DNA from: Betaproteobacteria bacterium
Lineage (GTDB): Bacteria > Pseudomonadota > Gammaproteobacteria > Burkholderiales > Casimicrobiaceae
NCBI GenBank assembly: GCA_029884335.1
Contig: JAOUIA010000020.1
Span: 1-57,362 of the forward strand
Direction of reading: 5' to 3'
Length of the DNA: 57,362 nucleotides
The stretch's first letter is position 1. Each line of letters opens with the position of its first letter. This document shows positions 40,857 through 57,362 of the stretch, one piece after another. The position numbers and the translations under genes are program-made. Below the pieces are notes generated by a model. It made no database searches. It saw only the letters and a list, made by a program, of their open reading frames with translations, and was not told where the DNA came from.

Positions 40857-43800
40857 ATGAGCGGCACGCCGGGTTCGGCGACGGCCCTTGCGAAGACGAC
40901 GCAGCCGGCCATGGGCGCGGCCGTCCCGCGCGAGGCGCTGTTCGCCCGCCTCGACCAGCCCGAGGGTCGCACCGCCATCTGGATCCACGGCGCGCCGGGC
41001 TCGGGCAAGACGACCCTCGCGGCGAGCTATCTCGCCTCGCGCGGCCACGTCCACCTCTGGTACCAGATCGACGCCGACGATGCCGATCCGGCGGCGTTCT
41101 TTCACCACCTCAGGCTCGCTGCGCGCCGGCTGGATGGCTTGCGCACGGCCGACCTGCCGTCGTTCACGCTGCAGCACGGCGGCGACGTCGCGGCATTCGC
41201 GCGGCGATACTTCCGCGCGCTGTACACGAAGTCGCGGCAGCCCTTCGCGCTCGTCCTCGACAACCTGCACGCCGTCCCGCCCACGAGCGTGCTGTACGAG
41301 GCGGTCCAGGCGGCGATGAACGAGGCAACGCGCGGCTGCTTCGTGGTCGTGACGAGCAGGTTCGAGGCGCCGGCCTGGCTCGCCCGGCTGCGCGCGGCGG
41401 GGCAGGTCGCCGTCGTCGGAGGTGCGGATCTGGCGCTGGGTCCGGAGGAGGTCGCCGCCGTTGCGCAGCTGCGCGGCCAGAGCGTCGCGGCCGAGGAGGC
41501 TGCCCGGCTCTACGAGCGGACGCGCGGCTGGGCGGCCGGGCTCGTCCTCCTGCTCGAGCACGCCAGGTTCACCGGAAAGGTGGCCGAAGTTCCCGGCGAC
41601 GCGCCCCCGCAGGTGGTCTTCGATTATCTCGCGGGCGAGACGTTCGACCGCTTCGAGCCCGCCACGCAGGCGTTCCTGCTGCGCGTCGCGTGCCTGCCGC
41701 GCATGACGGACGCCGTCGCGGAGCAGCTCTCGGGCGAGCGCACCGCCGCGCGCATGCTGATCAACCTCGCGGCGAACGACTACTTCGTGCGCGCGACGTC
41801 CGTCGAAGGCCGTCGCATGTACGAGATGCACCCGCTCCTGCGCGACTTCCTGCGCAGCCGCGCCACGCAGGCGCTGCCCGAGGCGACCGGGGCCGCGTGG
41901 CTGCGGCGCGCCGCCGCGCTGCTGCGCGAGTCGGGGCAGGTCGAGGACGCGGCCACGCTGCTCATCGAGTCGCGCGACTGGGCGCAGGTGGCCGACCTCG
42001 CGCGCGAGCGCGCCGAGACGCTGCTGGCGCAGGGCCGCGGCGAGTCGCTCGTCGCCTGGCTGGATGCGCTGCCCGAGGGCACGGTCGAGGCCGACCCGCG
42101 GCTCGCGCGCGTCGCCGCCGCGGCGCGCGCGCACGCGAGCCCGCGCGCGGCACGCCGCCTCTACGAGCACGCGTTCGAGGGTTTTCGTGCCGCGAACGAC
42201 GCGGCGGGGATGGCGCAGTGCTGCAGCGGAATCCTGCGCGCGATCCTCTTCGAGTTCGACGACTTGAGCCTCCTCGACCGCTGGCTGCGCACGTTCGAGG
42301 AGCTCGCGCGCGGCGCGGGTGCGGCCGGCGGCGGGGCGAACCTCGCGCTGGCCATGCCCTGGGCGCGCGGGCTGCTCGTTCGCGAGCCCGCGCATCCGGG
42401 CCTGCACGAGTGGCTTGCGCGCCTCGGCGTCGAACGCGCGGCGCGCACGCTGCCTGCCGCGGGCGGCGGGCGCGACGAACCCGCGCTCGTGCTCGCCGCG
42501 GCGGAGCTCGTGCGCGGCGACGTCGTCGCCTGCGGGACGCGGCTCGAGTCGCTGCGCAGCTCGACCGCGCGGCGCTCGGTCGCCGGCGTGCTCCCGCTCG
42601 CCATCGCGAGCGGCCTGGCGGAGCTGCTGGCCGGCCGCCACGCGGATGCGGAACGCGCTGCGGGGGAGGGCCTCGACGCCGCCGGTGCCGAAGGCATCCA
42701 CGCCTACGACGCGTGGCTGCGCGCCATCGTCGTCGCTGCCCGGCTGCAACGCGGCGACGCGGCCGGCGCGCGCGAGGCGCTGCGTCCGCTCGATGCCGCG
42801 GGTGCGCGGCTGCGCCGCGGCGATCGCGCCCTCGCGCACTACTTTCGCGGCTGGGCCGCGGCGCTCGAGCGCGACGAACTCGCGGCACACCACGAGGCGA
42901 AGGCGTCGCTCGCGGTTGCCGTGGAGGTCGGCGCGCCGTGGCTGGAAGCGCTCGCCCGTCTCGCCACGGCGCAGATGCAGACCGCGGTGGGCGATCGCCG
43001 CGGCGCGCAGGCCCAGATCCGCTCGGCGGATGCGATCGCGACGCATCTCGCCAGCCCGTGGCTCGCGGCCGGCGTGCGCCTCGCGGACGCGGGCGCCGCG
43101 CGCGCATCCGGCGATCGCGAAGCGGCGCGCGAATCCCTGGGCCGCGCGTTCGCGCTCTGCCGCGAGCACGGCTTCCTGCCGCCTCCCCAGTGGCACCCCG
43201 ACGCGGCCGCCGCGCTGTGCGAGGACGCGCTCGAAGCCGACATCGAGACGGGCTTCGTGAGGCGGTTCGTGCGCGACGCCCGCGTCTTCCCGGGCGTGCC
43301 GCCGCTGCGCGTGGCGCGCTGGCCGTGGCAGATCCGGATCAGGACGCTGGGCGGCTTCCAGCTCCTGCGCGACGAGGTGCCGATCGCGTTCACCGGCAAG
43401 GGACCCGGCCGCCCGATCGAACTTCTCAAGGTGCTCGTGGCGCTGGGCGGCCGCGACGTGCGCGCCGAGGCGCTGGCCGACGCGCTTTGGCCGCAGGCCG
43501 AGGCCGACTTCGCCCACCAGTCGTTCACCGCGACGCTGCACCGGCTGCGGCGCACGCTGCAGGCCGACGACGCGCTGGCGCTGAGCGACGCCCGCCTGTC
43601 GCTGGGGCCGACGCTGGTGTGGGTCGACACCTGGGCGCTCGAGCAGACCCTCGACGAGGGCGACGCCGCGTTGCGCGCCGCCGCTCCCGGCCAGGAAGGC
43701 AGCGTGCTGCGGCGCGCGCTCGACGAGGTACGCGAGCTCTACCGCGGCGCGTTCCTGCCCGACGAGACCGGGCATCCGGCGTTCGTCGCGCAACGCGAGC

Positions 43801-44081
43801 AGATTCGCTCGCGCATCCTGCGCCTGCTCGCGCGCGCGGCTCGCAGCTTCGAACAGGCGGGCGACCCGCAGGCGGCGACCGACGCGTACCTGCGCTTCAT
43901 CGAGGCCGACGAGGTCCACGAGGGGTTCTATCGCCCGCTGCTGCAGAGCCTGCAGCGCCGCGGCGAGGTGGCGGAGGCGAAGGCGCTCTACGAGCGGCTG
44001 CGCACGGTGCTCGCCGCGCACACGAAGGCGATGCCCTCCGCCGAGTCGCAGGCGATCTACGCGAGCCTCCGGACCCTCTAG
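40857..44081 (+). CDS. Large NTPase/SARP-type transcriptional activator (BTAD domain)
   Basis: A 1074-residue regulator. An NTPase domain lies at the N-terminus, with Walker A GAPGSGKTT at 45-53 and a Walker B-like FALVLDNLHAV at about 130-140. It resembles the STAND/MalT type, including the MHPLLRDFLR stretch typical of MalT-like proteins at about 322-331. A long helical repeat region (about 350-800) follows. From about 826 an OmpR-like winged helix (IRTLGGFQLLRDEVPIAFTGKGPGRPIELLKVLVALGG...ADALWPQAEADFAHQSFTATLHRLRR) leads into a bacterial transcriptional activation domain (LDEVRELYRGAFLPDE to the end). AfsR-like architecture, but with the DNA-binding part at the C-terminus. It probably controls itself and the operon on the minus strand downstream. 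Confidence 0.88.
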   Translation: MSGTPGSATALAKTTQPAMGAAVPREALFARLDQPEGRTAIWIHGAPGSGKTTLAASYLASRGHVHLWYQIDADDADPAAFFHHLRLAARRLDGLRTADLPSFTLQHGGDVAAFARRYFRALYTKSRQPFALVLDNLHAVPPTSVLYEAVQAAMNEATRGCFVVVTSRFEAPAWLARLRAAGQVAVVGGADLALGPEEVAAVAQLRGQSVAAEEAARLYERTRGWAAGLVLLLEHARFTGKVAEVPGDAPPQVVFDYLAGETFDRFEPATQAFLLRVACLPRMTDAVAEQLSGERTAARMLINLAANDYFVRATSVEGRRMYEMHPLLRDFLRSRATQALPEATGAAWLRRAAALLRESGQVEDAATLLIESRDWAQVADLARERAETLLAQGRGESLVAWLDALPEGTVEADPRLARVAAAARAHASPRAARRLYEHAFEGFRAANDAAGMAQCCSGILRAILFEFDDLSLLDRWLRTFEELARGAGAAGGGANLALAMPWARGLLVREPAHPGLHEWLARLGVERAARTLPAAGGGRDEPALVLAAAELVRGDVVACGTRLESLRSSTARRSVAGVLPLAIASGLAELLAGRHADAERAAGEGLDAAGAEGIHAYDAWLRAIVVAARLQRGDAAGAREALRPLDAAGARLRRGDRALAHYFRGWAAALERDELAAHHEAKASLAVAVEVGAPWLEALARLATAQMQTAVGDRRGAQAQIRSADAIATHLASPWLAAGVRLADAGAARASGDREAARESLGRAFALCREHGFLPPPQWHPDAAAALCEDALEADIETGFVRRFVRDARVFPGVPPLRVARWPWQIRIRTLGGFQLLRDEVPIAFTGKGPGRPIELLKVLVALGGRDVRAEALADALWPQAEADFAHQSFTATLHRLRRTLQADDALALSDARLSLGPTLVWVDTWALEQTLDEGDAALRAAAPGQEGSVLRRALDEVRELYRGAFLPDETGHPAFVAQREQIRSRILRLLARAARSFEQAGDPQAATDAYLRFIEADEVHEGFYRPLLQSLQRRGEVAEAKALYERLRTVLAAHTKAMPSAESQAIYASLRTL

Positions 44082-44857: not shown

Positions 44858-46870
44858 TCAGCGCGCCTTGCCCTTCGCCACGCACGCGGCGATCGCGCGC
44901 TCGGCGTTGACCTGGTCGTAGGGCTGCAGCGACCCCAGCAACTGGTCGCGCGCCCGCTGCGCCTGCGTGGCGCCCAACTTAGCTGCGCAACCGTACCAGA
45001 CGAAGGCCATGTAGCGGTTGTCCTGCGCTGCGAAGTGGCCGCCGAGCCAATTCATGGCGTCGACGTTGCCCTGCAACGCCGCGCGCTCGAACCACCTGGC
45101 GGCTTCCTGGATGCTGCGCGCGGCGCCGCGGCCGGTCGCGTGCGCATCACCCAGGAGGTATTGCGCGCCCGGATCACCCTTCTCGGCGAGCGGGCGCGCC
45201 TTGCGAACCGCATCCTCGTGGCGGCCGGCGTCGTAGTCGCGCCGGGCCTCTGCAAGCGGGTCGGGCTCGGGTGCCTTCGGGACAGGTTTCGTCGGCGTCG
45301 CCGCCACCAGGGCGCCCTCGGGCTCGGGCTTCGGCGCAGATTGCGGGGGCGGGCTGGCAGGGGACGCGGTGGCGCCGGGCGCGGGGTCGGGCTTGACCGC
45401 CGCACTCGAAGGGGCGCCGGCGGGAACCGCCGCGGGGAGGGGGCGTTGCTCCGGCTTGGCGGCGGCGGCACCCTTGTCCTTCGGAGAAGGCTTGGCGGCA
45501 GGCGCCGCCACGGGAGCGGGCTTCGGCCGCGCTTCCTGCACCGGTGCTTCCTTGGGCGCCGGTTTCGGCGCCGATTCGACGGCGGGCGGTTCCTTGGCAG
45601 CCGGCTTGGGCGCTGCGTCGACGGCCGGCGGCTCCCTGACTGCGGGCAGCGGTTCGGCTTGACGCGCAGGCTGCTCCGTGGCCTGCGCAGTCACGCGATC
45701 CCTGTTCTTCAGCAGCTCCTGTCGCAGCGCCGAGATCTCGGCGGTGGCGTCCTTCCGCCAGCCGGCGAGCCAGTAGGCGCCGACGGCGATGACCGCGGCG
45801 AGGCCGCCGGCGAGCGCGATCACGGCGAGCGTGGACGGACGCCCGAACCACGCGCGTGCCTGCGCGGGCGGCGCAATGGCAGGAGGCGGCGCGGTTGCGA
45901 GGCGAGTGACGGCAGGCTCGACTCGCGTCGCCTCCGCGACGGGTCTCGCCGGGATCGCGTCGCGCGCGACCGGCGCGGGCCGTTCGCCCGCGAGCTCGCG
46001 CCGCCACTCCGCGATGGACTGCGGCCGGTCCCGCTCGGCAAACGCGAGCGCGTGGTCGATCGCGGCGAGGAACTGCGCCGAGTAGCGTCCCGCGCCGACG
46101 ATGCTCGCGGGCGTCATGCTCTCCTGCGTGCTGCCGAGCACGCCCTTGCTGCGCGCGACCGCATCCAGCGGCGCGCGGCCCGCGATCGCACGATAGCAGG
46201 TCGCGGCGAGCGCGTAGATGTCCGTCCACGGGCCCTGGTTGCCCGAGTCGCTGTAGTACTGCTCGAACGGAGCGTAGCCGGGCGCGACCAGGATCGTGAG
46301 CGTGTCGGAGCTGCCGGCGGCCTGGCGCGCCGAGCCGAAGTCGAGCAGGACCGGCTGGCCGTTGCCGCGGATGTAGATGTTGTCCGGCTTGATGTCGCGG
46401 TGGATGAAGCCCGCGGCGTGGATCAGCTCGAGGCCGTCGAGGATGGGCAGCACGACGCCGGTGAGTTCGGCTTCCGGCAGCGTGCCGCGGCGGTCGAGGA
46501 CGGCGGCGAGGCTCGCGCCCTCCTCGAAGCGCATCACCATGTACGCCGTGTTGTTGAATTCGAACACCGACAGCACGCGCACGATGTTCGGGTGCTCGAA
46601 GCGCGCCAGCGTGCGCGCCTCCTGCAGGAACCGCTCGAGCCCCCACCGGTAGCGCTCGCGCAGCGCGTCGGTGCGCGAGCGGATGGTGAAGTCCGCCGTG
46701 CGCGTGGCGAACTCGACGGGCAGGTACTCCTTGATCGCGACGCGCTGGTCGAGGTTCGAGTCGCGCGCGAGGTACGTGATGCCGAATCCACCCTGGCCGA
46801 GGACGCGCTCGATCACGTACCAGTGCAGGCGGGTCTGCGCGGGCAGGGCGTCCGGATAGGCAGGGTCCAT
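44858..46870 (-). CDS. Membrane-anchored Ser/Thr protein kinase with Sel1-like repeats
   Basis: A 670-residue PknB-like kinase. Seen: the glycine loop GQGGFG (25-30), Lys47 in VAIKEYLP, HRDIKPDN (157-164), DFGSAR (177-182), and APGYAPFEQY with PWTDIYALAATCY. All catalytic residues are present. A transmembrane helix lies at about 347-370. A long Pro/Ala/Lys-rich stretch follows, then Sel1-type repeats near the C-terminus (GDPGAQYLLGDAHATGRGA, NVDAMNWLGGHFAAQDN), which would be outside the cytoplasm. The ATG at 46870 starts the kinase domain. It lies 91 bp downstream of the lipid operon and may be read with it or from its own promoter. Confidence 0.92.
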   Translation of the reverse strand: MDPAYPDALPAQTRLHWYVIERVLGQGGFGITYLARDSNLDQRVAIKEYLPVEFATRTADFTIRSRTDALRERYRWGLERFLQEARTLARFEHPNIVRVLSVFEFNNTAYMVMRFEEGASLAAVLDRRGTLPEAELTGVVLPILDGLELIHAAGFIHRDIKPDNIYIRGNGQPVLLDFGSARQAAGSSDTLTILVAPGYAPFEQYYSDSGNQGPWTDIYALAATCYRAIAGRAPLDAVARSKGVLGSTQESMTPASIVGAGRYSAQFLAAIDHALAFAERDRPQSIAEWRRELAGERPAPVARDAIPARPVAEATRVEPAVTRLATAPPPAIAPPAQARAWFGRPSTLAVIALAGGLAAVIAVGAYWLAGWRKDATAEISALRQELLKNRDRVTAQATEQPARQAEPLPAVREPPAVDAAPKPAAKEPPAVESAPKPAPKEAPVQEARPKPAPVAAPAAKPSPKDKGAAAAKPEQRPLPAAVPAGAPSSAAVKPDPAPGATASPASPPPQSAPKPEPEGALVAATPTKPVPKAPEPDPLAEARRDYDAGRHEDAVRKARPLAEKGDPGAQYLLGDAHATGRGAARSIQEAARWFERAALQGNVDAMNWLGGHFAAQDNRYMAFVWYGCAAKLGATQAQRARDQLLGSLQPYDQVNAERAIAACVAKGKAR

Positions 46871-46961: not shown

Positions 46962-47963
46962 TCAGCGGCCGCCTGCGCCGGCGCTTTGCAGAGGCCTGCC
47001 GAACAGAGCGTAGCGCCGCAGCGTAGCACCACTGCGCGCGCTCCAGTTCGCCGAGGCGTTGCCGGCGCGCATCAGCGCGTGGACCGCCCGACTGAAGCCC
47101 GCCTCCCGCGCGACGGCCGTGGCTCGGGCGGCGAGCAGGTGCGCAACCCCGGCGTAGGCGCGCCCTGGCAGCGCGACCACGGTCTTGACGATCGCCGTGT
47201 CGACGCGCTCGCCTCGCCGGGCCTGCTCGAGGTCGGGCAGCGCGAGGAACAGCGCGACCGGCAGGCGCGAACGTTCGGCGACGAGCACGATCTCCGGCCG
47301 CAGCACCGGCAGGAGCGCGGCGAAGCGCTGCGCGAAAGCCCGCTCGCCGATCGGCGTGAAGTACGGCTGGCTGCGAAATCCCGCCATGACCAGAGCGTGC
47401 AGGCGCTGGAGCTCCTCGCCGAGCCGGCGCGGGTCGATGCTGCGCACGAGCACGCCCTCGCGGGCGAGCCGCGCGCCGACGCGACCGGAGCGCGTTTCCT
47501 CGACGCGGAGATCCTCCTGCAGGGCGGAGACGTAGTGCGCCACCGGCGCGAAGCCGCAGCGGGCGAACTGCCGCGGCCAGTCGTCGTCGTTGTCCGGCTC
47601 GAGGAAGAAGCGGGGCGCGGCGCCGCGAAGCGTCACGAAGCGGTACGCGTCCCACGTGCTGCCGTCCATCGGGCCGAGGGCAAATTCGCACCCGTGCCGC
47701 GCGAGCACAGCGCACGCGCGCGCGATCAGCATCTCGCCGCCGCGCGCGTCGGCGCAGCGGTAGCGTCCGATCAGCCCCGTGCGCTTGCCCTGGTGCAGCG
47801 GCGTCGCGCGCCACCACAGCGCGCAACTCGCGAGCGCCGTGCCGTCTTCCGCGAGAGCCCGGAGCGAAGCGTCGGCGGGCACCGTGTCGGCGCCACCCGC
47901 GACCTCGCACGCTTCGACGCGCAGGCGCGAACTGTTCGGAACTCGCTCGCCGTCCGCAGTCAT
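46962..47963 (-). CDS. GNAT-like acyltransferase-fold protein, last gene of the operon
   Basis: A 333-residue soluble protein. The pattern SCALWWRATPLHQGKRTGLIGRYRCADARGGEMLIARACAVLARHGCEFALGPMDGSTWDAYRFVT resembles the beta-strand/helix core of GNAT acyltransferases, and a second region (about 190-320) may be another GNAT half. I do not see a clear acyl-CoA loop (QxxGxG/A), so the assignment is to fold, not activity. Its ATG overlaps the stop of the kinase-like gene upstream (ATGA). Position in the operon suggests it acylates, or senses, a pathway intermediate. Confidence 0.65.
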   Translation of the reverse strand: MTADGERVPNSSRLRVEACEVAGGADTVPADASLRALAEDGTALASCALWWRATPLHQGKRTGLIGRYRCADARGGEMLIARACAVLARHGCEFALGPMDGSTWDAYRFVTLRGAAPRFFLEPDNDDDWPRQFARCGFAPVAHYVSALQEDLRVEETRSGRVGARLAREGVLVRSIDPRRLGEELQRLHALVMAGFRSQPYFTPIGERAFAQRFAALLPVLRPEIVLVAERSRLPVALFLALPDLEQARRGERVDTAIVKTVVALPGRAYAGVAHLLAARATAVAREAGFSRAVHALMRAGNASANWSARSGATLRRYALFGRPLQSAGAGGR

Positions 47964-48754
47964 GGCGCCTCACCGCCCGGCACGGCCGCGCGCACGGGCT
48001 GGAGCGCGGCGGCCAGCGCCGCTAGCGCGACCAGGGCGATCACGGAGACGAGCGCGATCGCTGCGCCGGCGCCACCGCTGCCTGCCGCGGCGAGCTCGGC
48101 CACGCCGCTCCCGTGGAGCGCCGCGCAGGTGCCCAGCGGCACCAGCAGGTTGTCGAGTCCGCGCGGGCCGATCGCCTCCATCGCGGTCGCCACGACGGCG
48201 ACGAACGCTGCCGTCGCAACGAGCTCCGCGGGAGGCGCCGGAACGACGAGCGACAGCGCCGCGGCGGTGCAGCACCAGGCGAACGCGCAGAACGCCGCGC
48301 TGCCTTCCAGCGTCTTGTCGCCGACGAGCGCCCGGCGACCGATCCGCGTTCCGACGAGCGCGGCGGCGGCGTCCGCGAACGCGAGGACCAGCATCGGGAT
48401 GCAGAACAGCAGCGCATCGCCTGCCGCCAGCACGAAGACCGCGCAGGTGCCGAGCGCGTAGTGGATCTCGCCCAGCGATTGTCGCTCGACCGCGTGCAGC
48501 GTGCGCCCGATCGCGAAGCGCCGCGGGCCCGCGAGGCGCAGCGCGACGAACGCCGGGATCGTTGCACCGGCCAGCAGCAGCACCGGCCACGGTTCCGCGA
48601 ACAGCCACGGGAACGTCAGCGCCGCGAGCCCCATGCCGACGTGCACGGACTTGCGTGCCAGCTCCGGGTGGCGGGCGCTCGTCCTGCTGAGGATGGCAAG
48701 CAGCGCGCCGAGCGTTGCGAGCACCAGCGCGATGCCGAGCCAGGGGTCGATCAT
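47960..48754 (-). CDS. Polyprenol/phytol kinase-like CTP-dependent membrane enzyme (VTE5/dolichol kinase family)
   Basis: A 264-residue protein with about seven hydrophobic helices. Seen: RKSVHVGMGLAALTFPWLF at about 32-50, LGEIHYALGTCAVFVLA, and the family core ADAAAALVGTRIGRRALVGDKTLEGSAAFCAFA (about 126-158), the signature shared by dolichol kinase, phytol kinase and phosphatidate cytidylyltransferases. In known members CTP is used to phosphorylate a prenyl alcohol or to activate a lipid phosphate. The start overlaps the upstream stop and the stop overlaps the next start (ATGA each). With a UbiA enzyme in the same operon, a prenyl alcohol or lipid is the likely substrate. Confidence 0.82.
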   Translation of the reverse strand: MIDPWLGIALVLATLGALLAILSRTSARHPELARKSVHVGMGLAALTFPWLFAEPWPVLLLAGATIPAFVALRLAGPRRFAIGRTLHAVERQSLGEIHYALGTCAVFVLAAGDALLFCIPMLVLAFADAAAALVGTRIGRRALVGDKTLEGSAAFCAFAWCCTAAALSLVVPAPPAELVATAAFVAVVATAMEAIGPRGLDNLLVPLGTCAALHGSGVAELAAAGSGGAGAAIALVSVIALVALAALAAALQPVRAAVPGGEAP

Positions 48755-49848
48755 GCGAGCACCTCCTCGACGACGAGGTCGCCGTAGAAGAACGCGCGGT
48801 CGCGGCGCAGCAGGTCGCGCGCGAGGTCGGCGAGCGGGCGCAGCCGCGCGCCCAGCGACGGCGGCCGGCGCCGCTGCGCGAACAGGTTCCAGTAGACGAG
48901 CCGGCCGCCGGGCGTGACGGCATCCGCGAGGCTGGCGAGCGTGCTCGCGTGCTCGGCGGGCGACTGGTACTCGAAGACGTCGCTCAGGTTGCAGCGCTGC
49001 AGCGAACCGGCTCTCGCGCGCGCGAGCCAGTCGTCGAGCGAGCAGCAGTGCCACTCGAGGCGGTCGAGGCGCCCGCGAATGACGTCGAAGCGCTCCGGGC
49101 GCAGCGCGTACGGCAGCGCCGTCAGGTGCCGGCCGCTGCAGATCCACTGCAGGTACGGGTTGTCGGCGGGGTCGAGCTCGGTGAGCGCGCGCTGCGTGCG
49201 CGCGAGCAGGCGCTCGGCCACCTCGCCGCGGACGTGCGCGAACGTGCTGCGGTCGCGGCCGAGCGAGCCCATCACCGCGCGGGAGAAGAAGACGCGGAAC
49301 GCGAGCCGCCAGCGCCACGTGTTCCACGCCTGCGCGTACAGGTGGTCCCTCGCCTCGCGCGGTCCGCCTTGCAGCATCGCGCGGACGACGCGCTGCGGGT
49401 GCACCGCAGGGAGGACGTGCTCGCGGAACAGCGCGAGATAGCGCTCGAAGCGCCCTGCGCTCCCGACACCGGCTGCAACTGCACCGGGGCGCGCATCCCA
49501 GAAGCCGCGCGCCGAGGCGGACAGCGCCGGGCGGCAGCGGCCGTAGAGCGCCGCACGCCGGGTGCTCGGCACGGAGCCCACGAGCTCGAGCAACTCGCCG
49601 TGCGCGAGGCAACGGTAGGCCGCGACGCGCAGCTCCAGGCAGGCGATCTGCGCGGGGCTGCGGTCGATTACCACCACGCGGCCCGGGTCGGCGGCGAGCA
49701 GCGCCAGCGCGTTGTCGCCCGCCGATCCGATCGCCAGGCAGGTGTCGCCGGGGCGCACGTCGAGCGCCGCCAGCAGCACGTCGGCGTCCTCCCAGCACTG
49801 CGCGTAGCGCAGCGCGTCCGCTTTGCCGCGAGGGTCGCCGCTAGCCAT
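48751..49848 (-). CDS. DUF3419 / BtaA-like S-adenosylmethionine 3-amino-3-carboxypropyl transferase
   Basis: A 365-residue protein. Seen: YAQCWEDADVLLAALDVRPGDTCLAIGSAGDNALALLA, an AdoMet-binding loop, then VIDRSPAQIACLELRVAAYR, the DNPYLQWICSGRH stretch, and LSDVFEYQSPAEHASTLASLADAVTPGGRLVYWNLFA. This is the DUF3419 family, whose studied member BtaA moves the aminocarboxypropyl group of AdoMet to diacylglycerol, making a homoserine-headed lipid. The partner methyltransferase BtaB is not in the window. The ATG at 49848 overlaps the end of the exporter gene by 8 bp. Confidence 0.85.
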   Translation of the reverse strand: MASGDPRGKADALRYAQCWEDADVLLAALDVRPGDTCLAIGSAGDNALALLAADPGRVVVIDRSPAQIACLELRVAAYRCLAHGELLELVGSVPSTRRAALYGRCRPALSASARGFWDARPGAVAAGVGSAGRFERYLALFREHVLPAVHPQRVVRAMLQGGPREARDHLYAQAWNTWRWRLAFRVFFSRAVMGSLGRDRSTFAHVRGEVAERLLARTQRALTELDPADNPYLQWICSGRHLTALPYALRPERFDVIRGRLDRLEWHCCSLDDWLARARAGSLQRCNLSDVFEYQSPAEHASTLASLADAVTPGGRLVYWNLFAQRRRPPSLGARLRPLADLARDLLRRDRAFFYGDLVVEEVLA

Positions 49849-51970
49849 GGCGACGAGCGCCGTCGGCGCTGTGCGGCACGCGGCCGGTCGTGCTCCGGCC
49901 AAGGGCCAGGACGAGCGCGGGCATCAGCACGAGGTCGGCCACCACGCCGGCGACGAGGCCGAGCGCGATCAGCAGCCCGAACCAGATCACCGACTTGATC
50001 TCTGCCAGCGCGAAGACCGCAAAGCCGGCGATGAGCACAATCGTGGTGACCACGATGGCGCGGCCCGCGGTGTCGAGCGTGGCCTGCACGGCCGCGGCGG
50101 GCGACCAGCGTTGCCCGAGCTCGTGGTGCAGGCGGTGCAGCACGTGCACGGTGTCGTCGACGACCAGCGCCAGGACGACCGAGGCGATGGTCACCGTAGC
50201 GACGTCGAGCCGGATGCCCGCGAAGCCCATGACGCCGAGGATCGCCAGCACCGGCAGGACGTTGGCCGGGACCGCGAACAGCGCCGCGCGCGCCGATCGG
50301 AACGCCACGCCGATGACGAGGAAGATCGTCGCGAATGCCAGCGCGAAACTGCGCACCTGCGAGCCGACGACGTGGTCGACCATCCGCACGTACAGCGGAA
50401 GGTAGCCCGCCGGCTCCGCGGTTGCCCCGGCAGGCAGGTCGGCGGCGCCGGATACGGCGGCGATGAGTCGCTCCGCCGAGCGGGCCGACTGCATGTTCAC
50501 GCCGAACGTGACGCGCAGCGCGCACGCGGCATCCTCGGCGGCGGCGCAGGCCTTCGTGGAGTGGCCCCAGCCCACACCGGGGAGGGCCTGCGCGTCGCGC
50601 TGCCACCGCGCGACGGCGTCGAGCAGCCCGGCGTCGGCCTCGCCGCGGGGCGCTCTCACCACGAACTCCAGCGGGACGTACGGCCCGACGCGAGCCTCGA
50701 CGAAGTCGGAGTCGCGCCGGACGGGGTGATCGGCGAAGAGGAAGTCGATCGTGTAGGTGTCCACTTCGAGCCGCGTCGCCCCGATGGCGAGCGCGCCGAC
50801 GAGCGCCGCGCCCGCAGCCAGCGTCCGCGCGGGCCGGCGCGTGCCTGCGGCCGCGAGCCAGGCGACCACGCGCGTCACGCCGCCCTCGCGCGCGCGTCCG
50901 ACTTCGGCGCGGGGCGACGCGAGCGCCCCCGCGCAGCCGACGAGCGTCAGGGCGAAGCACGCCGCGATGCCGAACGCGCCGAACACGCCGAGGTCGCGTA
51001 TCACGGGCAGCGGCGAGACGGCGAGCGAGGCCAGCCCCGACACCGTGGTGAGCGCGTTGAGCAGGCAGGGACGCAGCATGAACGCGAGCGAACGGACGAC
51101 GTGCGTCCGGCGATCGGCGCCCGGCGGCACGGCGCCGACGTGCAGCTGGACGTGCACGCACTCGGCCACGCCGATCACCAGGACCAGCGTCGGCATCACC
51201 GAGGTCACCATGTTGAGGCTGCGGCCGCAGGCGCCGTAGAGGCCCAGCGTCCACAGCGACGCCGTGGCGACGACGGCGAGCGCGACTCCCACCGGCACGA
51301 TGCTGCGATACAGCCGCCACAGGACCAGCGCTATCAGCGCCCACGCCGCGACGAACAGCACGGCGGCGTCGACGATGGCGAGGCGATTGAGCGCTGCGTA
51401 CACGACGCCGATGCCCGCCTTGCGCGTGGGCACGGCGAGTTGCGCGAGCGCGTCGTCGATGCGCGCGAGGACCGCGTCGCGCCGGCCGTCGATGTCGGCC
51501 AGCGGCTGCATGCGGATCACGAGCAGGGCGACGGTCCCGTCGCGGCTCGCCAGACGGTTGCGCACGACCGCGTCGTCGAGCACGCGCTCGCGCAGGACGT
51601 TTTCTGCCGCACCTGCGCTGTCGCTCCCTGCCGCCCCGAGGACGTCGGCGACCGAGAACGCGCCGTCCACGCCGTCGACGCCGCGCACGCGGTCGGCGGC
51701 CCTGCGGAGCAGCTCCACGCCCGGAGGCCGCAGCATGCCGCCCGCGTCCGAGAACGCGACGACGACGACCTCGTCGCTGCCGAACGTGCGCTGGAACGTG
51801 CGGTAGGCGACCAGCGCCGGGTCGTCGTCGACGAACCAGACCTCCAGCGAGTTGTCGACGCCGACCCGCGTCGCCTGCCAGGCCGCGAGCGCGGTGACGA
51901 TCGCGCACAGCGCGGCACACCACCGGCGGCGGTCGTAGATCCAGCCGACGATGCGCTCGGCGCGCGTCAT
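49841..51970 (-). CDS. RND/MMPL-family lipid exporter-like membrane protein
   Basis: A 709-residue inner-membrane protein with two repeats of one helix, a large periplasmic loop, and five helices, the MMPL/HpnN layout. Seen: WCAALCAIVTALAAWQATRVGVDNSLEVWFVDDDPALVAYRTFQRTFGSDEVVVVAF at the start, GVAECVHVQLHVG and VVDDTVHVLHRLHHELG, which hold the helix-4/10 motifs of MMPL exporters. Relatives move hydrophobic lipids such as hopanoids or mycobacterial wall lipids with the proton force. The start overlaps the upstream stop (ATGA). In this operon it is the probable exporter of the product. Confidence 0.9.
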   Translation of the reverse strand: MTRAERIVGWIYDRRRWCAALCAIVTALAAWQATRVGVDNSLEVWFVDDDPALVAYRTFQRTFGSDEVVVVAFSDAGGMLRPPGVELLRRAADRVRGVDGVDGAFSVADVLGAAGSDSAGAAENVLRERVLDDAVVRNRLASRDGTVALLVIRMQPLADIDGRRDAVLARIDDALAQLAVPTRKAGIGVVYAALNRLAIVDAAVLFVAAWALIALVLWRLYRSIVPVGVALAVVATASLWTLGLYGACGRSLNMVTSVMPTLVLVIGVAECVHVQLHVGAVPPGADRRTHVVRSLAFMLRPCLLNALTTVSGLASLAVSPLPVIRDLGVFGAFGIAACFALTLVGCAGALASPRAEVGRAREGGVTRVVAWLAAAGTRRPARTLAAGAALVGALAIGATRLEVDTYTIDFLFADHPVRRDSDFVEARVGPYVPLEFVVRAPRGEADAGLLDAVARWQRDAQALPGVGWGHSTKACAAAEDAACALRVTFGVNMQSARSAERLIAAVSGAADLPAGATAEPAGYLPLYVRMVDHVVGSQVRSFALAFATIFLVIGVAFRSARAALFAVPANVLPVLAILGVMGFAGIRLDVATVTIASVVLALVVDDTVHVLHRLHHELGQRWSPAAAVQATLDTAGRAIVVTTIVLIAGFAVFALAEIKSVIWFGLLIALGLVAGVVADLVLMPALVLALGRSTTGRVPHSADGARRHG

Positions 51971-54513
51971 GCCGGCACGGGGACCGCGGCGGGGCACGCT
52001 GCCGCAGTGAGGAGACGCACCGTGCCGGCCGACCCGTCGATTTCCACGAGGTCGCCGTCGCGCAGCCAGCGGCACGCGCCGGCCACTCCGATCACCGCGG
52101 GCAGGCGCAGTTCGCGCGCCACGATCGCGGCGTGCGACAGCAGATTCCCGCGCTCGACGACGAGCCCGGCCGCCGCGGCGAACAACACGACCCAGCCCGG
52201 GTCCGTCCGCTCGGCAACCAGGATCTCCCCCTCGCCCAGGCTGGCCTGCGAGGGCTGCGTGACCACCCGCACGCGGCCGCGGGCCACGCCGGGAGAGCAC
52301 CCGATGGCGCTGACGTCGCCGCCGGACCGCGGAGTTGCCGCCACGGTCTCGCGAACGCGGGCGAAGGCGAGCTGGGCGATGCCGTGCGACTCGAAGCGCC
52401 GCGGCGGCGGCTCCGCGCGCTCGTGGCGCGCGAACTCGGCCTTGCGCAGCGCGGCGAGCGCGGCGAGGTCGCTGCACGTCGCCGTGCCCTCGACGCTGCC
52501 CAGCACCTCGTCGAGTTCCAGCCAGAACACGTCGCGCGGCTGCGCGAGCATCCCGTGCTCGTGGAAGCGGTGGCCCAGCTCGACGACGACGCGACGGACG
52601 CGCGCGAACACTCGCGTGCGCTCGAAGCGCATGTTCTCGCGGTCCCGCAGCCGGGCCCGCGCGTGCCGGAGCACCCAGCCGAACGCGAGGCGCCGCAGCG
52701 GGTGGCCACGCAGCGCCTTCCGGACACGTCGCTCGGCGTCGCGGCGGGCGTCGCCGGCGGCCGGCACGGACGCTGCGCGCGCCGGATCCGCGGCGAGCCT
52801 GCCGATCGTGCGCAGCAGCGGCAGCGGATCGTCGTCGTACGCGATGCTCTCGAGCTTGAGCTCCTCCATGCAGCGGTCGCCGAAGCGCGCGATGTAGGCC
52901 TCGAGACGCTCCCGGAACTCAGGGTGTTCCGGCAGGGCGGCGCGCACGGCCGCGGGGTCGCCCTCCCGCAGCAGCGCGGCCAGCACCGGCGTGCCGGCGG
53001 CGAGACGTGCGAGTTCGCCGATGCGCTGCGCAGGCTCGACGCTGACCAGACCCGGCTCGCCGGCGACGAGGTCGTTGGCGAGTCCCGGCGCGTGCGGGTC
53101 GAGCCAGCGTCGCGCGAGGCGCGTCAGCAGGCCGTGGAAGATCATCGCGAAGAAGTCGTTGACGAGCGGCGCGTCCCAGTGCCGGAGCAGCCGGCGCTCG
53201 AGCTCGTGGAAGTGCGCGACCAGCTCGTCGGCGCGCCGATCGGCCAGCGGCGGCGAGGGCGGCGCCAGCGCGTCGTCGAGCCTCGCCATGAAGCGGCGGT
53301 TGCGCCGTTCGACCGTAGCGAAGTTGACGACGAACCGCGCGGCCTGGCGCGCGAGGGCGAGGCGGGTCGTGCGTGCCCGCGCGCTCGCGTGGATGCGCGC
53401 GAGCACCGGTGCCGCGGCGAGCTCGCGCACGCCGAGCATCTCGTCGAGGAAGCGCCGGTTGTGGGCGAACGCGGGCGTGAGCGCCAGCAGCTCGTACCAG
53501 GCGACGAGGTCGTAGTAGACGCGGCCGCGCACCAGCGTGACCATGCGCCGCAGCGCCGGCGAGTGGTCCTCGACCAGCGCCTCGCCGACGCCGCCGACGC
53601 GGCAGAGCTCGCGGTAGACGTGCTCGTAGGCGCGGCGGATGAACGAGTACGTGAGCGGTGTGGTCGTGCCGCCGTAGCTCTCGCCGATGTTGCTCGAGTC
53701 GAAGAGCGCTAGCGCGGCGTCCGGGTCCGCCCGGGCGGCGAGCGAGGTGATCGGCCGCGACTGCAGCAGCCACAGCTTCGCGCCCTCGTACGCCCACTCG
53801 ATGTCCTGCGGCGCGCCGAAGTGCCGGGCGCAGCGCCGTGCCAGGTCGGCGGCCGCGAGCGCCTGCGCGTCGGTGAGGCAGGGCAGCGGACCTTCGGTGG
53901 TGCGCGCGGTCACGCGTCCGGAGCGGTCGACGTGCCAGGTGTCGCCGTCGCGCTCGCCGGCGACCAGCGCGTTGGCCACGCCGGGCACTGCGGCGACGAC
54001 CGCGATGCCGCGGCGACCGCTCACGGGGTCGGCGCTGAACGCGACGCCTGCGGCATCCGCGTCGACCATCCGCTGCACGAGGACCGGGACGTTGGCGCCG
54101 GGCGCTCGTCCCAGGCCGTGGCGCTCGCGGTAGGCCCGCACGTGCGCCGCGTGCGCCGATCTCCACACGAGCGCGACGTGCGCTGCGACCGCGTCCGGCG
54201 CGACGAAAAGGAAGCTCGCGAGCTGGCCGGCGAACGAAGCCCGGCCGCCGTCCTCGTCCGCCGCGGACGAGCGAACTGCGACGCGCTCGCCGCGCGGGCA
54301 CAAGCGCCCCAGCGCGGCGGCGAGGGCGGCGTGCGGTCCCTCGTGCCAGGCGAAGCGGCCGCCCTGTGTCAGGGAAGCCGCAGCGGCAGGCGGCGTCACC
54401 GCGAACCAGGGCGGGACGGGCAGTCCGCCGCGCGCGGCGCTCGCCAGCGCGAGTCCCTTCGCGCCGAACTCGGCGATGCCGGCGTCGTCCGTGCAGTTGC
54501 GGATCCAGTCCAT
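51967..54513 (-). CDS. Rifampicin-phosphotransferase-like dikinase (ATP-grasp + His domain)
   Basis: An 848-residue enzyme. An N-terminal PPDK-type ATP-grasp domain (about 1-300: GAKGLALASAARGGLPVPPWFAVT, VAVRSSAADEDGGRASFAGQLASFL, VPVLVQRMVDADAAGVAFSADPVSG, DIEWAYEGAKLWLLQSRPI) is followed by a long helical middle domain (310-735) and a C-terminal swivelling domain with the phosphohistidine motif GNLLSHAAIVAREL (His794). There is no PEP-binding barrel, so it is built like rifampicin phosphotransferase (about 867 aa) and not like PEP synthase. Such enzymes phosphorylate a hydroxyl with the beta-phosphate of ATP. Start ATG at 54513; UbiA lies 8 bp upstream. Confidence 0.88.
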   Translation of the reverse strand: MDWIRNCTDDAGIAEFGAKGLALASAARGGLPVPPWFAVTPPAAAASLTQGGRFAWHEGPHAALAAALGRLCPRGERVAVRSSAADEDGGRASFAGQLASFLFVAPDAVAAHVALVWRSAHAAHVRAYRERHGLGRAPGANVPVLVQRMVDADAAGVAFSADPVSGRRGIAVVAAVPGVANALVAGERDGDTWHVDRSGRVTARTTEGPLPCLTDAQALAAADLARRCARHFGAPQDIEWAYEGAKLWLLQSRPITSLAARADPDAALALFDSSNIGESYGGTTTPLTYSFIRRAYEHVYRELCRVGGVGEALVEDHSPALRRMVTLVRGRVYYDLVAWYELLALTPAFAHNRRFLDEMLGVRELAAAPVLARIHASARARTTRLALARQAARFVVNFATVERRNRRFMARLDDALAPPSPPLADRRADELVAHFHELERRLLRHWDAPLVNDFFAMIFHGLLTRLARRWLDPHAPGLANDLVAGEPGLVSVEPAQRIGELARLAAGTPVLAALLREGDPAAVRAALPEHPEFRERLEAYIARFGDRCMEELKLESIAYDDDPLPLLRTIGRLAADPARAASVPAAGDARRDAERRVRKALRGHPLRRLAFGWVLRHARARLRDRENMRFERTRVFARVRRVVVELGHRFHEHGMLAQPRDVFWLELDEVLGSVEGTATCSDLAALAALRKAEFARHERAEPPPRRFESHGIAQLAFARVRETVAATPRSGGDVSAIGCSPGVARGRVRVVTQPSQASLGEGEILVAERTDPGWVVLFAAAAGLVVERGNLLSHAAIVARELRLPAVIGVAGACRWLRDGDLVEIDGSAGTVRLLTAAACPAAVPVPA

Positions 54514-54521
54514 GGCGTTTC

Positions 54522-55472
54522 CTAGGACGCGACGACCAGCCCGAGGGGGCCGAGTCCGGCGTAGAGCGCGAGCGTGGCGATGCCCGACAGCGTCTCGATC
54601 TGCCGCGCGCGTGCGCGCACCGGCCGGGACAGGTAACGAGTGCCGGAGAGCGCGGCGAGAATGGCGAGCGTCGCGGCCAGCGCGGCGAACGGGCCCGCCA
54701 GGCCGATGGCGCGAGCGGCGAGCCAGCCGGCCACCAGCGTCGCGGCACCTGCCGCGAGCCAGGCCACGATCGCGCCATCGCGGCCCCACGCGGCGGTGTA
54801 GGTCACGACGCCGCGTTCCTCGTCGACCGGCGCGCGGATCTTGCGCCCGATCTCGAGCAGCGTCGCCGCGCCGACCGCGCACGCCGCCCACCAGGCGAGC
54901 GCCGGATGCGCATCCGCACCCGCGGGCAGCCAGTCGAACGCGGTGAGATAGAACGCGATGCCGCCGGAGACGGGCACGTGCGATGCCAGGTAGGCCAGCG
55001 GGCGCGCCTTCAGCCAGTCGGCCGCGAAGAACTCCGCCGCCATCAGCCCGAGGTAGGCCCACACGCCGGCAAGCAGCCACGCGAGCCGCGCGTCGACGGA
55101 GAGCGCGAGCGCCAGTTGCGCGATCGCGGCCGACGCGCCGATCCAGCCGAGCTCGCCCAGCGTGACGAGGCCGCGCGGCACGGGCCGGTAGGGCCGGAAC
55201 GCGCGGTCGTCGTCCGCGTCCTTGAACTCGTCGAGCACGCGCATCTGCGCGAACAGCAGCAGCGCGCTGGCCGCCACGGCGAACGCGTTCCACGCCGCGG
55301 GCAGCGCGTCGGCGTCGCGCACCAGCGCCGAGAACGCGAGCGCGGAGCACGCGAGGACGCAGGCCAGCGTGCCCATGGCGGCGAGCGGGAAGCGCTCGCG
55401 CTGGTAGGTCCACCAGCGGCTGGCCGTGTCGGCTTCCAACGGGGGAACGGCGGCGGGTTCACGCGTGACCAT
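54522..55472 (-). CDS. UbiA-family prenyltransferase
   Basis: A 316-residue membrane protein with about eight or nine helices. UbiA enzymes join a prenyl diphosphate to an aromatic ring or a glycerol lipid. The first Asp motif reads RVLDEFKDADDDRAFRPYRPVPRGLV (Asp81, Asp85, Asp89) in place of the usual NDxxDxxxD. The second, less regular one is GRKIRAPVDEERGVVTYTAAWG at about 190. Thus the Mg-diphosphate site seems intact although the Asn is replaced by Leu. It overlaps the end of the diiron gene by 14 bp. The acceptor cannot be told from sequence. Confidence 0.88.
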   Translation of the reverse strand: MVTREPAAVPPLEADTASRWWTYQRERFPLAAMGTLACVLACSALAFSALVRDADALPAAWNAFAVAASALLLFAQMRVLDEFKDADDDRAFRPYRPVPRGLVTLGELGWIGASAAIAQLALALSVDARLAWLLAGVWAYLGLMAAEFFAADWLKARPLAYLASHVPVSGGIAFYLTAFDWLPAGADAHPALAWWAACAVGAATLLEIGRKIRAPVDEERGVVTYTAAWGRDGAIVAWLAAGAATLVAGWLAARAIGLAGPFAALAATLAILAALSGTRYLSRPVRARARQIETLSGIATLALYAGLGPLGLVVAS

Positions 55473-56460
55473 GGCATTCCTCCTGCGGGTCTTCGCACGG
55501 CAGCTCGTCGACCAGCGCGAGCGTGCGGCGGTGTTCCGGATACGCGGCGAGCAGCGCGAGCGTGCGCGGCAACGCCTCGCGGCCGAGGACGCGGCGGCGG
55601 AAGCCGGCGTCGTGACGCAGGCCGGGAAGCTCCGCGCGCAGCCGTGGCGCGACGGTGGCGCGCAGGTGCGGGAACTCCCGCTCCAGCACGGCCAGGATCG
55701 ACAGCGCGGTGCGCCGTGGCGACGCGTACGCCCTGACCACCTGCGCGAACATCAGGGCGCACAGCGAGCGCTTCCACGCCGGCTGCCCGTCGTAGGCGTG
55801 CGCGAGCAGGTGCTCGTCGAGCTGGACGTGCCGCGCCTCGTCGCGCAGGTGCAGCGCGTGCGCGCGCGCGTGCAGCGGATCGATCGCTTCCGGCGCACGG
55901 CGGCGAGCCCGCACGAACTCGCGCGACAGGAAGAGCGTGCGCTCCTCGATGAAGATGGTGAGCCAGATCCACATCAGCAGCCGTTCCGGGTGCGCGGCCA
56001 CGCCCGCCATCAGCCAACGCTCGGCGGGCGAGAGCACGAACAGCCGGGGTTGCGGCGCCGGGTACCACGCCGGCTCGGAGCGCTCGAGCAGGCGGCCGAA
56101 CATCGCCACGTGCTTGTCCTCCTCCTCGACGAAGCGCCACAGCGCGCGCCGGAGCTCGAAGGGCAGCTCGACGCGGCCGGTCAGCGCGCGCGCCAGGGCG
56201 CGGATCACCAGGCCCTCCGCCCAGACGAACTGCTCGGCGATCCCGAGCGCCTGCAGCTGGTTGCAGCGCCGTTGCTCCGCGGCGCCGAGCATCGCGTACG
56301 AGGGCAGGAACGCGAGCGGGCCGATGGCGTCGGGCATCCAGGGCAGCGCGCGGTCCGCACCCGCCGACCAGTCGACGTCCTCCAGCCGGAACGAGTGGTC
56401 GCGCGACTGGCGGTCGAGCCGCGCGAGCGCGGCGAGGGGGTTGGTGGATGCTGCGGCCAT
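55459..56460 (-). CDS. AurF-like diiron oxygenase, first gene of the operon
   Basis: A 333-residue helical ferritin-fold protein. The metal ligands line up with those of AurF (p-aminobenzoate N-oxygenase): Glu82 (WAEG), Glu114-x-x-His117 (EEDKH), Glu173 (EERT), and His204 with Glu208-x-x-His211 (HLRDEARH). The 4- and 3-residue spacing in the last group is the same as in AurF. The family oxidises amines to nitro or hydroxylamino groups, or hydroxylates carbon. The ATG at 56458-56460 is chosen: an in-frame start at 56517 would precede the predicted transcript start. A SARP-type operator lies just upstream. Confidence 0.85.
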   Translation of the reverse strand: MAAASTNPLAALARLDRQSRDHSFRLEDVDWSAGADRALPWMPDAIGPLAFLPSYAMLGAAEQRRCNQLQALGIAEQFVWAEGLVIRALARALTGRVELPFELRRALWRFVEEEDKHVAMFGRLLERSEPAWYPAPQPRLFVLSPAERWLMAGVAAHPERLLMWIWLTIFIEERTLFLSREFVRARRRAPEAIDPLHARAHALHLRDEARHVQLDEHLLAHAYDGQPAWKRSLCALMFAQVVRAYASPRRTALSILAVLEREFPHLRATVAPRLRAELPGLRHDAGFRRRVLGREALPRTLALLAAYPEHRRTLALVDELPCEDPQEECHGHA

Positions 56461-56599: not shown

Positions 56600-57362
56600 T
56601 CAGGGCCCCGTGACGATCGCCAGGGCCCGCTGCGCGATGAGCGCGTGCATCGCGGCGGTCGGGTGGATGCCGTCCCAGAACAGGTAGGTGTCCGGCTTCT
56701 TGCAGCGGAACGGCGGCTGGTTCGGCGTGACGCAGGCGTCGGTCGCGTTGGCGAACCCGTAGGTGCCGGGGTTGGCGATGACCTGGTCGAGCGTCGCGTG
56801 GAGGTCGAGCACGCGGATGTCGACGCCGAGCGCTGTGGAGAGCGCGCCCGCGGCCTGCGCGAGTCCGGCGTTGTACCCGCTCGCGAGGAAGCCCCCCAGC
56901 CAGGCGGCGCCCGGGACGACCGCGTCGAGCGCGCGCAGCGCAGGCGTCTTGCCGATGTCGGGCACGTTCGTCACCAGGAAGCGCCGCGCGCCCGTGCCGT
57001 AGAGCTGGACGATGCTGCCCGCGAAGCTGTCCAGCGCATTGCCGATGACCGGGGCGGGATTCCCGCCGCCGGCCGCCACGATGAGCGCGTCGCGCACGTC
57101 GTTGCTGCCGATCTCGATCACCACCAGCGTCTCCGCGGACGTGGTGCCGAAGTCGGAGACGTACATCGCGACCTGCTCCGGCAGGTTGAAGCGGCATGGG
57201 AAGGCGGGGGTCGCCCGCGCGCCGCTGGTCGCGTAATTGCTCGCCACCGCGCTCTCGCTGGCCAGCGCAGGACGCGCGTTGCCCGCGCGGCCGAGGCCGC
57301 GCGCCAGGCCTTCGACCCACGTCGCGCCGTTGGTGACGTGGTGGCCGCCGGTCGCGTAGGGG
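56600..57362 (-). CDS. SGNH/GDSL-family esterase (N-terminus outside the window)
   Basis: The frame is open to the right edge, so the start and block I (GDS) are not visible. The 253 visible codons begin with TGGHHVTNGATWVEGLARGLG, the segment that follows the GDS Ser in secreted GDSL lipases. The GSND block (VVIEIGSNDVRDAL), NVPDIGKTPALRAL and the catalytic Asp-x-x-His (FWDGIHPTAAMHAL) are also present. A pair of Cys (DACVTPNQPPFRCKKP) suggests a secreted, disulfide-bonded protein. Its stop lies 30 bp before the predicted operator of the next operon, so it is not clearly part of that operon. Confidence 0.88.
   Translation of the reverse strand, partial: PYATGGHHVTNGATWVEGLARGLGRAGNARPALASESAVASNYATSGARATPAFPCRFNLPEQVAMYVSDFGTTSAETLVVIEIGSNDVRDALIVAAGGGNPAPVIGNALDSFAGSIVQLYGTGARRFLVTNVPDIGKTPALRALDAVVPGAAWLGGFLASGYNAGLAQAAGALSTALGVDIRVLDLHATLDQVIANPGTYGFANATDACVTPNQPPFRCKKPDTYLFWDGIHPTAAMHALIAQRALAIVTGP

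Follow-up and report, generated by a model that had tools for sequence, protein, structure and literature searches.

A Casimicrobiaceae operon related to a widespread gene cluster that may build an exported lipid with an amino-acid-type head

The 57,362-nucleotide stretch of contig JAOUIA010000020.1 analyzed here (the window), from a Betaproteobacteria bacterium of the Casimicrobiaceae, carries a seven-gene operon (Table 1) that we tentatively read as a variant of a lipid-building gene cluster recurring in distant phyla. In the order of transcription, the genes are joined by a 14-bp overlap, an 8-bp gap, an ATGA (4 bp) overlap, an 8-bp overlap, and two further ATGA overlaps. An earlier reading of the sequence alone (the sequence-only reading) had described seven minus-strand genes with overlaps and a single 8-bp gap, and all seven frames were found in place. 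Of the seven family names that it proposed, five held through Pfam, and those of the kinase-like and GNAT-like proteins are favored by conserved residues and relatives. Pfam scores were 74.2 bits for AurF (cut-off, 29.6), 147 for PPDK_N and 81 for PEP-utilizers in the dikinase (PPS), 80 for MMPL, and 211.7 for DUF3419, while the UbiA score of 29.6 bits lies below its cut-off of 34.2; Pfam and NCBIfam scans returned no match for the window's kinase-like or GNAT-like protein. The window begins at base 1 of its contig, in an assembly of 3.66 Mb and 120 contigs that is 95.6% complete.

Table 1. Genes of the operon, listed in the order of transcription
Product	Position in window	Strand	Remarks
AurF-like diiron oxygenase	55459-56460	minus	First gene; occupies the usual FcrA place of other loci; Pfam AurF
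UbiA-superfamily transferase	54522-55472	minus	Pfam UbiA below cut-off; acidic motifs
PPS (rifampin-phosphotransferase/PigC-like dikinase)	51967-54513	minus	ATP-grasp and C-terminal phosphohistidine domain
MMPL/RND (HAE3/HpnN-like) exporter	49841-51970	minus	Pfam MMPL; NCBIfam HpnN/HAE3 models below cut-off
DUF3419, short BtaA-like 3-amino-3-carboxypropyl transferase	48751-49848	minus	Pfam DUF3419
Phytol/dolichol-kinase-like membrane protein, short form	47960-48754	minus	Conserved residues, remote relatives
GNAT-like acyltransferase	46962-47963	minus	Conserved residues, relatives, Pfam GNAT match in L024

Scanning of genome contigs with the DUF3419 protein confirmed 193 relatives, and the best 80 of these 193, which are 50 to 61% identical to the window's protein, were kept (the loci around DUF3419 relatives from other genomes are labeled L0xx or L1xx). 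Profiles made from the loci were run against six-frame translations of 88 stretches, namely, the window, L013, the 80 loci, and 6 genome regions; 3 of the 6 regions repeat other loci, leaving 84 other loci for the counts, several of which are cut short. The arrangement is beyond chance, as the same succession of genes is found in distant phyla. It usually runs FcrA, UbiA, PPS, DUF3419, kinase, GNAT, and ligase, and in a second order, GNAT and the ligase are placed first. The window shares five of its seven genes (UbiA, PPS, DUF3419, kinase, and GNAT) with this recurrent cluster, and two further genes, usual elsewhere and outside the view of the sequence-only reading, encode an OleC/FadD-like acyl ligase and a "3-hydroxy-3-methylglutaryl (HMG)-CoA reductase" of the FcrA type. 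Among the 72 of 80 loci with at least 1 kb before DUF3419, a same-strand PPS gene was found in 64 and stands directly before DUF3419 (at most 300 nt from the profile match) in 49. The eight others are L026, L034, L043, L045, L060, L073, L087, and L090; in L034, an RND gene precedes DUF3419 and the contig then ends, and in L073, PPS lies on the opposite strand. With at least 5 kb before DUF3419 (60 loci), PPS was found in 55, UbiA in 53, and FcrA in 40. With at least 5 kb on both sides (51 loci), the counts were 46 for PPS, 44 for UbiA, 43 for GNAT, 41 for the ligase, 34 for the kinase, 32 for FcrA, and 2 for RND, all seven usual families being present in 28 loci and none in 4. Protein distances are also correlated for each of the 21 pairs of families (r of 0.33 to 0.90, values reached in no more than 5 of 999 permutations).

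The two genes that the window does not share with the usual cluster behave differently from this core. The AurF-like gene stands where FcrA usually sits, and its product belongs to AurF by its Pfam score; a single-sequence profile found it in none of the 84 other loci. AurF-like matches occur in 29 genomes of a 369-genome class sample, the window's included, and neither ubiA nor pps lies beside any of 29 other AurF-like loci within the ~1.5 kb fetched on each side. Both results rule out AurF as a core member; a PDB sequence search with the AurF-like protein gave nothing meaningful. RND was found in 4 of the 84 other loci: between PPS and DUF3419 in L066, as in the window, directly before DUF3419 at the contig end in L034, and, in L054 and L084, before FcrA and after the kinase, respectively. 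RND proteins match the HpnN and HAE3 models, the matches being far below cut-off. In L021, a MacB-type ABC pair directly follows the ligase; L046 has an ABC ATPase inside the cluster. On our reading, the core stays constant, while the genes for supply, tailoring, and export vary. Thus, the proposal that the pathway genes are kept as a unit stands for most of them, which recur together in distant genomes, but is not supported for AurF and RND.

The residues expected for catalysis are conserved in the core enzymes. The best solved relative of PPS is rifampin phosphotransferase (Rph; E 1e-108), with which it shares an ATP-grasp and a C-terminal His domain and the lack of a pyruvate-binding barrel, only PPDK_N and PEP-utilizers being found by Pfam. 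K19, R81, E239, Q251, R253, and His794, which correspond to the ATP and His residues of Rph, are invariant in 63 of 63 PPS proteins. In Rph, an Arg-Glu pair positions the phosphohistidine and is used for phosphorylation of the acceptor, according to the portion of the source seen (PMC4844700), and this pair aligns with R625-E626 of PPS, invariant in the 25 proteins aligned. The PPS profile aligns with Rph at positions 11 to 307 and 530 to 880, the stretch between, within the substrate-binding part, being unaligned. The best NCBIfam model, "phosphoenolpyruvate synthase" PRK06241.2-2, scores 650 bits (cut-off, 883), and the rifampin-specific model RIF_Ptrans_rph scores 256 (cut-off, 999). Since the substrate-binding stretch is unaligned and no curated cut-off is reached, the acceptor of PPS should differ from that of Rph. 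The UbiA-type enzyme carries the acidic motifs of its superfamily (D81, D85, D89, and E218 in 59 of 59; E82 in 58 of 59), and its profile finds as nearest PDB entries the archaeal digeranylgeranylglyceryl phosphate (DGGGP) synthase (E 0.0017) and chlorophyll synthase (E ~0.002).

The DUF3419 protein combines the Pfam domain with G44, N46, and D62 in 85 of 85 sequences and S42 in 84 of 85, residues that we take to bind S-adenosylmethionine (SAM). In the part of the review PMC10491745 that was seen, BtaA is listed as an aminocarboxypropyl transferase drawing this group from SAM. In a tree made by a quick method that warned of long branches, one branch (support, 98) parts 85 cluster-type rows from 24 BtaA-like rows, none of which has a tested function. 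The same division appears in the class sample, where other cluster-type proteins are 43 to 59% identical to the window's and the remaining DUF3419 matches 24 to 36%, and in length, as most cluster-type proteins have 360 to 382 amino acids and the others come from open frames of 395 to 498, bar one of 375. A 375-amino-acid protein in L114 sits on a very long branch between the two sets of rows. The window's protein groups with those of L034, L016, L046, L051, and L039 (supports of 80 to 83, none strong); a short form of the kinase is present in all five of these loci and also in L035, L040, and L041.

The kinase-like protein keeps E31, R34, K35, H38, D128, K147, and G151 in 60 of 60 sequences and E150 in 59 of 60; we presume that E..RK..H, D, K..EGS, and E/DN form the motif of phytol and dolichol kinases, hence the name used here. 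Its profile matches cyanobacterial proteins of ~235 amino acids (E 1e-27 to 6e-37), which have no Pfam or NCBIfam model match themselves. No Pfam or NCBIfam name could be given to the family, the only and weak match being ABC2_membrane_5 (E 0.04, in L092), and a PDB sequence search with the kinase-like protein gave nothing up to E 1. The GNAT-like protein is 29 to 46% identical to 31 relatives from other clusters, one of which (L024) matches Pfam Acetyltransf_1 at E 3e-6; in the PDB it has weak acetyltransferase matches only (E 0.03 and worse).

The reductase of the relatives would bring in an alkyl chain. Its HMG-binding Lys, which we take to be residue 735, was located by alignment with 6hr7. 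FcrA, a fatty acyl-CoA reductase, is told from HMG-CoA reductase by pocket residues, namely, Glu for Ser684, a bulky residue for Leu862, and loss of the HMG-binding Lys (there printed as 795) to a generally small residue, with the catalytic residues kept, as set out in the part of PMC11948995 that was seen. In all 41 near-complete cluster proteins, Ser684 is replaced by Glu and Leu862 by Phe, the four catalytic residues are kept, and the Lys is lost, its place being taken by Met (29), Val (6), Phe (2), Ile (2), Thr (1), or Ala (1). The relatives' gene thus carries the residues that distinguish FcrA, a gene that the window lacks. Since these residues occur in all 41, the reductase looks like one of the fatty acyl-CoA reductase type, and the usual cluster resembles a pathway to a fatty-alcohol lipid rather than to mevalonate. 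PF00368 occurs in 72 of the 369 class-sample genomes and in five of the six other ones with a cluster-type DUF3419, each time within ~4 kb of that gene (Fisher's test, P = 0.004, with the window counted as lacking PF00368 and two of the six genomes sharing a genus and so not fully independent). As for the ligase, an AMP-binding enzyme, its closest model is PRK09274 (OleC/fatty acid CoA ligase), whose cut-off it does not reach. Together, FcrA-type reductase and acyl ligase would point to a fatty chain.

Several lineages carry additional genes. In the Verrucomicrobial loci L033, L036, L047, and L049, the gene before PPS fuses an aminotransferase to a reductase half (only that of L033 was profiled; it matches acyl-ACP reductase and PDB 4ppm, which we take to be PigE of the prodigiosin pathway). 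This fusion would give a long-chain amine, in agreement with a DUF3419 acceptor that is a long-chain nucleophile. L047 and L049 have a second PPS, and a SnoaL-like protein stands beside DUF3419 in the Verrucomicrobial version (profiled in L029). Among cyanobacterial loci, a radical SAM protein is present or else an HpaI-like aldolase with a 2-oxoglutarate (2OG)-Fe oxygenase, the latter two lying before DUF3419 in L072 and L088 (profiled in L072). In Brevibacillus L083, a P450 directly follows the ligase. A PPS-DUF3419 fusion in L141 (9121-12672, minus strand, one frame) is doubtful, as its sequence contains masked bases and the kinase gene there is spread over four frames, and it was not used.

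By record title, the best 80 of the 193 relatives spread over 17 phyla; the titles could be mistaken for many of these records, which are metagenome assemblies. The phyla are Cyanobacteriota, Planctomycetota, Verrucomicrobiota, Lentisphaerota, Chloroflexota, Deinococcota, Acidobacteriota, Armatimonadota, Gemmatimonadota, Rhodothermota, Bacteroidota, Pseudomonadota, Thermodesulfobacteriota, Rokuibacteriota, Latescibacterota, Actinomycetota, and Bacillota. PPS accompanies the DUF3419 gene in 16 of the 17; in the Armatimonadota locus, cut ~1.2 kb upstream, only the kinase, GNAT, and ligase are seen. Among the plasmids searched, the cluster was present in Roseinatronobacter only, on a plasmid of Roseinatronobacter sp. 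S2. Close to the window, the DUF3419 gene was found in 1 of 64 genomes of the family, the window's own, and in 12 of a 150-genome sample of the order, again including the window's own, the other 11 proteins being 24 to 36% identical. A single carrier in the family, with only distant DUF3419 proteins in the order sample, suggests a horizontal gain of the operon, and the cluster as a whole has a patchy distribution, probably through horizontal transfer. The neighborhood comparison advised by the sequence-only reading therefore came out in two ways: distant genomes keep the genes together, while close relatives are without DUF3419.

The best reading that we can offer, held tentatively, is that the window operon is a variant of a cluster forming a membrane pathway that makes, on the inner membrane, an exported lipid with an amino-acid-type head, a 3-amino-3-carboxypropyl (homoserine-type) one. 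Gene order, conservation, and the catalytic and FcrA-type residues are observed; from them we infer every reaction, the reaction order, and the product as follows: (i) in the usual form, the OleC/FadD-like ligase would activate a fatty acid, and (ii) the FcrA-type enzyme would reduce the acyl-CoA to a fatty alcohol; (iii) the kinase-like protein and/or PPS would phosphorylate the chain or an added hydroxyl; (iv) the UbiA-type enzyme would attach to the long chain a group carried on a diphosphate, in the simplest case a prenyl chain; (v) the DUF3419 enzyme would transfer 3-amino-3-carboxypropyl from SAM, so that the head becomes a homoserine-type ether (or amine); (vi) the GNAT protein would acylate the free amine; and (vii) in some lineages, an RND or MacB-type ABC pump would export the product. 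In the window, where the genes for the first two steps are missing from the assembly, the AurF-like oxygenase may modify the chain or the amine instead, and the putative RND exporter is built into the operon. The homoserine-headed, exported lipid first suggested for this operon fits the gene set, and UbiA may prenylate it. Going further, with somewhat less confidence, the cluster may define a new bacterial lipid class, spread horizontally over ~17 phyla, in which a long alkyl (or amine) chain from a fatty acyl reductase derived from HMG-CoA reductase would be joined by UbiA and given a SAM-derived homoserine-type head, the phosphohistidine dikinase being an essential partner of the head-group transferase. 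That no described pathway has this set also held: no description of the cluster or its product was found in the open-licence literature, among the matches listed, and the gene set is not described in the parts seen of PMC13001223 or PMC12419801.

Several points weigh against this reading. PF00368 has no match in the window assembly (the control was positive in 5 of 14 genomes), and neither has the ligase an ortholog there, the best-scoring match being 29% identical (E 2e-18); the fatty-alcohol reading is thus carried over from the relatives. In these, the lost Lys is Met in most proteins, though the FcrA residue is said to be generally small. UbiA enzymes normally require an activated diphosphate, and no prenyl-diphosphate synthase was seen among the recurrent gene groups; the cluster also holds two possible phosphotransferases, PPS and the kinase-like protein, without explanation. 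As to the acceptor, a PDB sequence search with the DUF3419 protein gave no solved relative at E values up to 1. In four cyanobacterial loci whose flanks are complete (L026, L043, L045, and L090), DUF3419 stands without any partner, and the same is seen in L014 and L060, also cyanobacterial, within the reach of their shorter flanks. The distance correlations would fit joint transfer but would also arise from shared descent. Finally, the GC content of the operon does not differ noticeably from that of the rest of the window, so that a recent transfer is visible only through the distribution.

The main rival is a prodigiosin-like condensation, in which PPS would join two halves of a small hydrophobic secondary metabolite as PigC/RedH do, one half bearing the aminocarboxypropyl group, with UbiA prenylating, AurF, P450, or 2OG enzymes tailoring, and the pump exporting. 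Over ~600 amino acids, PPS scores 294 bits with the RedH model and 264 bits with the PigC model, the Verrucomicrobial supply protein resembles 4ppm, and patchy spread with swapped tailoring genes is typical of secondary metabolism. However, both scores are far below the cut-offs (1350 and 1300 bits, respectively), the best model and the best solved relative are PRK06241.2-2 and Rph, and no polyketide or nonribosomal peptide synthetase module was seen among the recurrent gene groups, where carrier proteins under ~80 to 90 amino acids are not called. We consider this rival unlikely, though by far the strongest of those weighed. A mevalonate/polyprenol pathway, in which the reductase would make mevalonate and the kinases and UbiA would handle prenols, agrees with the matches of the reductase to Pfam HMG-CoA_red (391 bits, L037) and TIGR00533 (317 bits; cut-off, 441.8; L021), but it is weakened by the FcrA-distinguishing substitutions in 41 of 41 proteins and by the absence of this gene from the window assembly, and has become very improbable. 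Equally improbable is a redox-active or photoprotective, prenylated quinone-like compound made by the ligase and UbiA from an aromatic acid: UbiA enzymes often prenylate aromatic acids and the ligase is an AMP-binding enzyme, but no gene for aromatic-ring biosynthesis was seen among the recurrent groups, the ligase comes closest to enzymes of the OleC/fatty acid CoA ligase group, and FcrA would imply an alkyl chain. Least probable of all is a classical betaine-lipid pathway to diacylglyceryl trimethylhomoserine (DGTS) with extra genes: DUF3419, which we take to be the BtaA family, speaks for it, but the cluster-type proteins are set apart by tree, identity, and length, and no BtaB-type N-methyltransferase was seen among gene groups recurring in at least four loci (the window genome was not searched for BtaB).

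Around the operon, a GDSL-type lipase/acylhydrolase (56600-57247, minus strand, its frame open to the window end) lies just upstream on the same strand. A serine/threonine kinase with a Sel1 repeat (44858-46870, minus strand) lies ~90 bp past the operon end; at E 1e-60 it has matches in 2 of 22 genomes of the genus, one being the window's own, and a comparison with empty sites gave nothing because this flanking gene is not common to the genus. A large AAA/BTAD-domain transcriptional regulator (40857-44081, plus strand) is a possible regulator of the operon.

If the lipid reading is true, one cluster would explain the separate DUF3419 group, FcrA proteins outside wax-ester pathways, Rph-like dikinases not acting on rifampin, and a membrane family of kinase-like proteins for which Pfam has no model. 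The lipid or metabolite should then be sought in isolates of carriers, among them Roseinatronobacter, Calothrix (Calothrix sp. NIES-4105 carries UbiA, PPS, DUF3419, GNAT, and the ligase), and Methylomonas sp. SURF-1, where the full set of seven usual genes is present, and an "HMG-CoA reductase" in such clusters should not be taken as a sign of the mevalonate pathway.

Compared with known systems, the ebo cluster likewise has a UbiA-type gene (EboC) in a widespread cluster for an unknown metabolite, as far as the part seen of PMC5133447 goes. The EboC model scores 20 bits here against a cut-off of 250. The other ebo genes are presumably not those of this cluster. The BtaA/BtaB system shares a DUF3419-family enzyme that takes aminocarboxypropyl from SAM (PMC10491745, seen in part), whereas the cluster enzymes form a separate, shorter group that does not fall with the BtaA-like proteins and has other neighbors, with no BtaB-type partner among the recurrent genes. 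The RND protein of the window resembles the HpnN/MmpL lipid exporters through model matches far below cut-off. FcrA, whose pocket changes the cluster reductase shows throughout and which the window lacks, has been linked to wax esters and possibly ether lipids, "UbiA" being absent from the main text of that source (PMC11948995, seen in part). PPS has the architecture of Rph, with the ATP-grasp first and the phosphohistidine last, and keeps its Lys, Arg, Glu, His, and Arg-Glu residues, but differs from Rph and from PigC/RedH in the unaligned central substrate-binding stretch and in falling short of their family cut-offs. Although very remote, and although the first motif of the cluster's UbiA is DExxDxxxD-like, the archaeal DGGGP synthase is the best PDB match of the UbiA profile, and an enzyme of this kind would make an ether bond.

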